Shown: positions 25,138-47,298 of the stretch, piece by piece | Numbering within the stretch: position 1 is the stretch's first letter | How the letters are laid out: the number at the start of each line of letters is the position of its first letter | Source of the DNA: Bacteroidales bacterium | GTDB taxonomy: Bacteria; Bacteroidota; Bacteroidia; Bacteroidales; Bacteroidaceae | Length of the DNA stretch: 64,000 nucleotides | Assembly: GCA_018064685.1 (NCBI GenBank) | Contig: JAGHUS010000035.1 | Location: forward strand, 37,613 to 101,612 | Reading direction: 5' to 3' | Notes under the pieces: generated by a model | What the model was told of the DNA's origin: nothing | The model's database searches: none | What the model saw: only the letters and a program-made list of their open reading frames with translations | Program-made: the position numbers and the translations under genes

Positions 25138-25180
25138 AAAACGTCACCCATATCGCACCAAAACGCCCAACAGGAAATAA

Positions 25181-25532
25181 ATTTTCACTCTGCTCTTCAG
25201 CTCTTCATATTTTCTTCGTATCTACATAATATACAGCAATATAGAAGCATGAAGAGTCCTCACAGCTCTTCATCACTCTTCATGCCTCTTCATCATTCAT
25301 TGACCTAAACAAAAAGGAAGGGAAGAGAGGAATGCACATAAGTCAAGCTCCAGTCGCCTTGGAAGAGTGATGAGGTAGAAACCAGTTTCTGCTTTGGTGA
25401 TGAGGCAAATGCAAGAGGCATGAAGAGTCATGAAGAGTCATGAAGAGGAAAAACAACTCTTCATATTTATATCTATCTGAATATATGCCACTTACAGAAT
25501 AAATATGAAGAGCTGAAGAGTGAGGCGAAAAT
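25181..25532. repeat. MITE-like 352-bp element with inverted termini and internal GAAGAGT repeats
   Basis: CTCTTCAGCTCTTCATATTT (25193-25212) is the exact reverse complement of AAATATGAAGAGCTGAAGAG (25501-25520); flanking bases partly symmetric. Confidence 0.7.
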
Positions 25533-25593
25533 TCTTTTTCCTTCGCCCTACCCTCTCTGTTTTTCTTTCCAGAATACTGCTAGGGCTTTCTCA

Positions 25594-36171: not shown

Positions 36172-37293
36172 ATGAATTATACAATCGAGCATCGCACGCT
36201 ACACTTCAAGCAGCCTGCGGGAACAAGCAGAGGGGTGTACCACACTCGCGACGTGTGGTACATACACCTATATGAGGGCGATTGGCATGGCATTGGCGAG
36301 TGCGCCCCCCTACCCGATCTCTCATGCGACGCCTACCCCAACGAGGAGTACGAGCAGTATCTGCACGCCGCTTGTCGAATGACTTGCCAATTGGGACACA
36401 TCCCTTACGAGTGGTTGCGCGACTATCCAAGCATCCTGTTCGGACTGGAGATGGTGGAGAAAAAAAGACTCTCCCCCCGCCCTCCCTATAGGGAGGGAGC
36501 CTCCTATACTCAAGGGGGCACAGTAAGAGAAGGTGTAAGTAGCAGAAATGCAGTCCCCTCCCTTCACTTTTCGTCTTCGGACAAAAGTAGAGGGCGGGGG
36601 GAGAGTCTGCCGGCCTGCGGCCCCCTCTGCCGCATCAACGGACTGATATGGATGGGCACGTATGATGAGATGCGACGTCAGCTTGAGGCGAAGCTGGAGG
36701 CTGGCTACCACTGCATAAAACTGAAAATCGGAGCCATCAACTTCGAGGATGAACTGGCACTGATAAAGCAGGTGAGACGTGACTTCGGTAGCGAGGTAGT
36801 GGAACTGCGTGTCGATGCCAATGGCGGCTTTGGCAACAACTATGGCGAGGCTATCGACAAACTGCACCGATTGGCAGAATATGACCTGCACAGCATTGAG
36901 CAACCTATTCGCCAGAAGCATTGGCAGGAGATGGCCGCTCTGTGTGCAGATTCACCGCTTCCTATCGGCCTCGACGAGGAACTTATCGGTATCAATACTA
37001 CTGCCAAGAAGATCGCCCTGCTCGACACTATCCGTCCGCAGTACATCATACTGAAACCCATGCTGCACGGCGGCTTCAGTGGTTGCGACGAATGGATACG
37101 TCTGGCCGAAGAGCGCGGCATCGGTTGGTGGGCCACATCGGCTCTGGAGTCGAACGTAGGACTGGCAGCCATAGCACGCTGGGTAGCGCAGTACCATCCC
37201 ACCATGCCCCAAGGCCTCGGCACAGGATTGCTCTATACCGACAACACGCCGCCCGAGACCGAGATCCGGGGCGACGAGTTGTATTTGCTCTAG
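36172..37293 (+). CDS. menC: o-succinylbenzoate synthase (enolase superfamily) with in-frame insertion
   Basis: IKLKIGAINFEDELALI; LRVDANGGF; SIEQPI; GLDEELIG; enolase-superfamily order; menE nearby. Confidence 0.85.
   Translation: MNYTIEHRTLHFKQPAGTSRGVYHTRDVWYIHLYEGDWHGIGECAPLPDLSCDAYPNEEYEQYLHAACRMTCQLGHIPYEWLRDYPSILFGLEMVEKKRLSPRPPYREGASYTQGGTVREGVSSRNAVPSLHFSSSDKSRGRGESLPACGPLCRINGLIWMGTYDEMRRQLEAKLEAGYHCIKLKIGAINFEDELALIKQVRRDFGSEVVELRVDANGGFGNNYGEAIDKLHRLAEYDLHSIEQPIRQKHWQEMAALCADSPLPIGLDEELIGINTTAKKIALLDTIRPQYIILKPMLHGGFSGCDEWIRLAEERGIGWWATSALESNVGLAAIARWVAQYHPTMPQGLGTGLLYTDNTPPETEIRGDELYLL
36467..36607. repeat. 141-bp GC-rich palindromic element with 17-bp perfect terminal inverted repeats, inside menC
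   Basis: GACTCTCCCCCCGCCCT (36467-36483) and AGGGCGGGGGGAGAGTC (36591-36607). Confidence 0.85.
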
Positions 37294-41843: not shown

Positions 41844-42330
41844 TATAGAAACCCATTTCAACTACATCTACACTAATACCACGTATATAATTGTGCATCT
41901 GCATATTAGACACAGTGTAGTTAAATCTTTCAACTACACTGATGCCTATAGGCATAAATATTTACTCTCTATAGGTGTAACAGACAAATGATGCTGCAAC
42001 ACAACTTTGTACGATAGTTATTGTACGCGCGTACAATAGTTATCGTACAGACGTACAATAACTATCGTACAAACAATTCCCCTCGTGAATGTTCATAAAC
42101 AGTATCGCGACAAGAATGAAAAGACGTTACATTTCTTCATTTTTGACCTGGAAGGTTTCTGTTCTCTATTTCATGATGATTTCCTATAGCGTGATGCCTG
42201 TTTGTCGAAATCACAGAAATATTTTGTCATTTTAGTGTAGATAAATGTAGTTGAATTCAGCATAACATCCATTGATTACCAACACAATAGACCTAATTTG
42301 TGTAGATGTAGTTAAAATAGTGTTTCTATA
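41844..42330. mobile_element. MITE-like non-coding element with ~34-bp imperfect terminal inverted repeats
   Basis: TATAGAAACCCATTTCAACTACATCTACACTAAT (41844-41877) vs reverse complement of 42296-42330 TATAGAAACACTATTTTAACTACATCTACACAAAT. Confidence 0.7.
42009..42070. promoter_or_regulatory. Three 18-bp operator-like units at 22-bp spacing
   Basis: GTACGATAGTTATTGTAC / GTACAATAGTTATCGTAC / GTACAATAACTATCGTAC at 42009, 42031, 42053. Confidence 0.75.
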
Positions 42331-47214: not shown

Positions 47215-47298
47215 CTTTCTTGAAGTACCTTATCAGTGTTGGCATCTCCCCCCCCATCAGTATTGGGACTCTCCCCCTTCAGGGGGTTGGGGGGTCTT

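Follow-up and report, generated by a model that had tools for sequence, protein, structure and literature searches.

Rickettsia palindromic elements (RPEs) are dispersed palindromes of ~150 bp that lie in frame in unrelated genes, to which they add a peptide (reviewed in PMC10969869; mentioned in PMC3733652). In REPIN/REP-RAYT systems, dispersed hairpin units form inverted pairs around a variable spacer, without target duplication, and are linked to a cognate HUH (Y1) transposase, the RAYT; REPs have been found within genes elsewhere, although this is not the rule (PMC3733652). With regard to nucleases, I-Bth0305I, of the Vsr/EDxHD type, is listed as a mobile intron protein. The element described here, which lies in frame inside a menC gene, shares features with each of these systems, and the palindrome family to which it belongs seems to be linked to DUF559, a homing-type nuclease gene that has been overlooked.

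The window, i.e. the whole stretch of 64,000 nucleotides that was analysed, belongs to the 3.8-Mb metagenome-assembled genome (MAG) of an uncultured gut bacterium, and menC is a gene of vitamin K2 biosynthesis. The features discussed below are as follows.

36172..37293, + strand: menC, the gene of o-succinylbenzoate synthase (373 aa), with the in-frame insert
36467..36607, unstranded: REPIN-like palindromic element, 47 codons in frame, absent from 12 relatives, predicted disordered loop
36466..36484, + strand: left terminal arm AGACTCTCCCCCCGCCCTC, a perfect inverted copy of the right arm
36480..36497, + strand: left half-unit hairpin CCCTCCCTATAGGGAGGG
36559..36607, + strand: 49-bp stretch with 100% identity to the arm of a broken DUF559 gene (G000:C72:9183-9231)
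36567..36587, + strand: CTTTTCGTCTTCGGACAAAAG, a second, small palindrome located inside the loop of the right half unit
36590..36608, - strand: right terminal arm
47269..47296, - strand: copy of another subfamily, GACCCCCCAACCCCCTGAAGGGGGAGAG, whose arm also brackets the DUF559 gene at G000:C73
56489..56744, unstranded: third subfamily (GCCCCTCTCCCCAGCCCTCCCC...), an inverted pair between pta and ackA that begins 2 bp past the pta stop codon

A sequence-only reading of this DNA had described the insert as a complete palindromic element of 141 bp, and its coordinates, length, frame and encoded peptide, as well as its two internal palindromes, were all borne out. The terminal inverted repeats are perfect, as it had claimed, but are 19 bp long instead of 17 bp; the 17-mer occurs twice in the window, against 0.10 occurrences expected. 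The RNA of the insert folds with an energy of -77.6 kcal/mol (z = -7.4 versus shuffles). The term "complete element" is too simple: the right arm is composite. While the left half is a standard unit, the right half contains the nested small palindrome, a module also found at locus L080, and its last 49 bp equal the arm that adjoins the frameshifted DUF559 gene on contig C72 of the window's own genome. Given these two properties of the right half, the menC copy is most readily understood as belonging, in composite and non-autonomous form, to a palindromic family.

The host protein is otherwise normal, in agreement with the initial description. It exhibits the Pfam domains MenC_N and MR_MLE_C, its best PDB match is the MenC structure 2pge, and the invariant columns of the MenC alignment include K183, K185, D215, E243, D268, E269, and K295. 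We take this K-x-K, D, E, D-E, K series to be the residues expected of the enolase superfamily. The 47-aa segment is missing from 12 MenC relatives, several of them of the same genus, and thus is not a genuine domain conserved in all homologues, the observation that would have spoken against an insertion. The AlphaFold model of MenC is confident (pTM 0.83), and the insert is modelled as a disordered loop: residues 102-148, essentially the insert, have a pLDDT below 50 and are placed between the last helix of the capping domain and the barrel. The insert is probably retained in the MenC protein. That the segment is a native MenC domain or an assembly artefact is hardly credible. The MAG comprises 206 contigs and repeats cause misassembly, yet the same relatives align to the two menC halves, the reading frame is continuous, the segment contains unique internal sequence, and the same phenomenon is observed in many independent MAGs. 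In another genome (G022, locus L033), MenC is fused in frame to a MenE-like sequence in a single ORF of 718 aa.

The palindromic unit, GACTCTCCCCCCGCCCTCCCTNNAGGGAGGGAGC, has at least about 27 matches in the genome of the window and is found across the genus, with up to 24 matches listed in its other genomes. The 24 genomes sampled from the order's other families gave no match. In an exact 21-mer scan of named genomes, the matches listed were all MAGs of Bacteroidales, mostly from rumen or other gut sources, and included Candidatus Physcousia equi. The genomes compared are drafts or MAGs of varying completeness, and the copy counts are lower bounds. Many copies are inverted pairs of about 90-200 bp, and others are single units. 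In addition to the third-subfamily pair of the window, a GACTC arm is present upstream of ackA in another species (L241). In the window, imperfect inverted repeats, with repeats of the CATGAAGAGT type, are also clustered at 25175-25538, and there is an imperfect 33-bp palindrome (TTTGTACGATAGTTATTGTACGCG..., 88% complementary) at 42006-42073.

None of 75 pairs is bordered by an adjacent target-site duplication of 3-8 bp, and 2-bp duplications occur at chance level. In this respect, and in that no DDE transposase partner was seen, the family is unlike MITEs, which the menC-type copies resemble as short, non-autonomous elements with terminal inverted repeats and as apparent internal-deletion derivatives of a longer gene-bearing element. 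Because native loops vary in length among species, a clean empty site at the nucleotide level is not definable for menC and RF3. The native loop residues of RF3, UxaA, and MenC differ too, and insertion may therefore involve loss of target sequence. Both this and the missing target-site duplications weigh against the model proposed below. In UxaA, the full element is found in three species and a shortened in-frame remnant, DSSPATERAGEES, in a fourth, with nothing comparable in the UxaA of most other species.

The build of these elements, inverted hairpin halves around a short spacer without target duplication, is that of a REPIN, and the genome of the window contains three Y1_Tnp genes, so that an ordinary REPIN/REP element moved by a RAYT had to be considered. 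However, GACTC arms are found at none of these three Y1 loci, one of which is encircled by a different palindrome, and the element-rich genomes G015, G016, G018, and G019 gave no Y1_Tnp match. In the consensus unit, the GTAG/CGTC tags of most REPs (PMC3733652) are not seen. Mobilisation by a RAYT was rejected on gene content and on the flanks of the Y1 loci, and this explanation is improbable. One Y1/RAYT gene of the window's genome (G000:C59:41816-42079; L030, L097) has another palindrome family inside and around it, encoding peptides like TQRCLTPLC, apparently in frame. The menC family thus shares with REPIN/REP-RAYT systems the dispersed, inverted hairpin-unit pairs and the link to a cognate enzyme, but this enzyme is a Vsr/EDxHD-like nuclease instead of an HUH transposase, and many copies are located in genes or fused to them instead of being extragenic.

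In-frame placement is a repeated property of the family. In the genome of the window, in-frame copies are found within RF3, an APH-type kinase, and an ECF sigma factor. A HAD hydrolase and AroE carry theirs at the N-terminus, a beta-galactosidase close to its C-terminus, and an RNase H is preceded by one. In other species, they are found in the FeoA-FeoB linker, UvrA, Mfd, TamB, GltB, NAGLU_C, UxaA, and a CbiE-CbiT-like protein, among others. According to Pfam, the copies of FeoA-FeoB, UvrA, Mfd, RF3, the APH kinase, NAGLU_C, TamB, GltB, and UxaA lie in loops or linkers. The proposed likeness to RPEs is therefore supported as regards how the element works, as a dispersed palindrome that is open and translatable within unrelated genes; it is a likeness of placement. 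In contrast to RPEs, the family belongs to a different phylum, the host here being a MAG of Bacteroidaceae type, has a variable spacer between two clear, inverted hairpin arms, and includes longer DUF559-coding relatives and N-terminal leaders.

A census of 214 distinct copies, with genes called by a codon-usage model, comprised 20 inverted pairs and 22 single units that are inside genes, open and in frame. The length of the pairs modulo 3 (residues 2/0/1) was distributed 17/2/1 in genes versus 20/18/17 elsewhere (Fisher p=2e-4), a bias that is partly built in, as the in-gene call itself demands a matching frame. The frame bias of the arms does not depend on it: arms before coding sequences use the three frames 69/23/11 times (p=1e-12), and arms after coding sequences 29/10/2 times (p=8e-7). 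Many arms before genes form N-terminal leaders, in which a start codon in the spacer is followed by a peptide like MNTSSQIHSAPSLxGRAGGES and by the first domain; in IspD, TrpRS, ArgB, LMW-PTP, PyrI, ValRS, and POR, the leader abuts this domain within a few residues. Further arms directly follow apparent signal peptides, as judged by eye.

In one gene, the spacer was inverted in place. L234 and L271 represent this gene, common to two species, with arms 97-100% and flanks 81-83% identical, while the two spacers match in reverse complement alone (79/83) and are open in both orientations. An internal duplication is also common to both spacers. These data, together with the 15 of 20 in-gene pairs that remain open after in silico inversion, would be in keeping with a functional intragenic inverton, in which the spacer flips between the arms and switches the encoded peptide. 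Nevertheless, the single clear inversion is between species and not within one population, and no invertase was identified, which makes this explanation very improbable in general. For menC, an inverton switch was rejected, as the flipped copy encounters a stop at codon 113.

With regard to the enzyme, a scan for longer arm-bounded segments revealed an intact DUF559 gene of ~123 aa between identical GACTC arms at four loci (L232, L253, L259, L268) of different MAGs, and a fifth with similar arms in G010. Inverted hairpin arms flank 37 of the 45 DUF559 genes of the genus and the order (Bacteroidales), compared with none of the 76 control loci of RF3, MenC, and UxaA, and 5 of 17 Y1 transposase loci. 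The arms are therefore linked to DUF559, and the terminal arm of the menC copy is identical to that of a DUF559 gene. Arm similarity follows protein similarity (Mantel r=0.507, p=0.0005, n=36 elements, uncorrected for shared ancestry). The two subterminal motifs of the DUF559 elements are both present in 43 of 72 short pairs, against 1.4 expected from shuffled spacers, as expected if the short elements are internal-deletion derivatives.

The invariance of residues, among them D58, E69, and D71, across 35 DUF559 members indicates selection on the nuclease. The structural model (pLDDT 87.5) matches NGO0050 (3hrl), I-Bth0305I (3r3p), and, more weakly, Vsr; the match to the catalytic domain of I-Bth0305I has an E-value of 2.5e-8 by sequence and 2.7e-5 by fold. 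A Caulobacter DUF559 protein was independently termed Vsr-like in a 2026 paper (PMC12907096). Judging by titles and the beginnings of abstracts, none of the 14 open-access papers mentioning DUF559 is on palindromic elements.

The element could also be an RPE-like selfish palindrome, with DUF559 as a passenger or a repeat-tolerant neighbour instead of the driver. A nuclease is not needed for in-frame retention alone, and some element-bearing MAGs have no DUF559 match (G018 and G022, both incomplete). The GACTC-armed DUF559 gene of the window's genome is frameshifted, which counts against a DUF559-driven process; in the second DUF559 gene of this genome (C73), the frame is open, and this gene has a separate arm family of at least 24 copies, one of them at position 47269 of the window. 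On the other side, the contrast between DUF559 genes and controls in flanking arms, the correlation of arms with protein, the shared subterminal motifs, and the selection on the nuclease all argue against a passenger, which we consider unlikely, if less so than the other alternatives.

DUF559 is itself found within protein genes. The LeuRS of four genomes (L375, L391, L429, and L432), which represent at least three families, carries it in frame at one shared editing-domain junction, and further in-frame copies are contained in an epimerase, a type ISP enzyme, HsdR, and MetH. In HsdM and a PurL-like protein, it is positioned inside or after the host sequence, and it is fused to IspG, phosphoglycerate mutase, and guanylate kinase. 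The importance of hosts such as LeuRS and MetH, and the stable RNA hairpin of the menC insert, could suggest that the segment is removed before or after translation, as an intron, an intein, or by ribosome bypass, leaving MenC normal. Removal at the RNA level, however, would need neither the frame nor the stop-free state, and both are kept. Pfam identified no intein (Hint) domain in the in-gene DUF559 copies, and Rfam at its gathering threshold identified no family and no known intron at 10 DUF559 loci, where the reading frame is continuous. The menC insert itself matched no structured-RNA family above threshold (best hit Cyano-2, 17.1 bits versus a gathering score of 40). Removal is therefore highly doubtful. 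The DUF559 gene differs from that of I-Bth0305I, which its profile and model resemble: it is located between palindromic arms, is often fused in frame to its host protein, and was found with neither an intron nor an intein.

Based on these observations, we propose that the menC insert belongs, as a composite and non-autonomous member, to a family whose DUF559-bearing relatives settle in genes and whose mobility is driven by the nuclease, a model to which we assign a probability of roughly 0.7. Each element comprises two inverted hairpin arms of about 35 bp around a spacer; in the putative autonomous members, the same arms enclose the DUF559 gene, encoding a nuclease of ~120 aa with the Vsr/EDxHD homing-endonuclease fold. 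Both kinds settle in, or at the edges of, protein-coding genes. Copies that keep the frame would survive as peptide because the arms are devoid of stop codons in the frames used, and these peptides would form loops, linkers, stretches after signal peptides, and new N-terminal leaders. The nuclease may recognize the arms, as hairpin or cruciform, and/or nick the target, with the element being copied or joined in during repair, and short derivatives that have lost the nuclease gene could be moved by an enzyme acting in trans. In menC, translation would include the peptide, and the mature protein would contain and tolerate it as a disordered loop on its surface, where the capping domain joins the barrel. 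From the sequences compared, we infer that the DUF559 enzyme mobilises the arms.

On balance, we favour the broader view that this is a widespread class of Bacteroidota elements, in which DUF559 and hairpin arms insert in frame and persist as translated, unspliced peptide, so that the menC-type copies and those of LeuRS, MetH, and restriction enzymes would be one system. Such a class is absent from the open-access text searched, and priority may exist elsewhere.

Protein-coding palindromes have so far been treated largely as a peculiarity of Rickettsia without a known enzyme. If the DUF559 link holds, the elements described here would represent a kind of mobile element that is new in being embedded in genes, a role would be found for a common protein family whose function is unknown, and the movement of palindromes within genes, together with the keeping of the frame, would become testable in an identifiable nuclease-plus-arm system. 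If true, mobile DNA would in this way be able to supply essential proteins with linkers, leaders, and entire nuclease domains, with no splicing involved.
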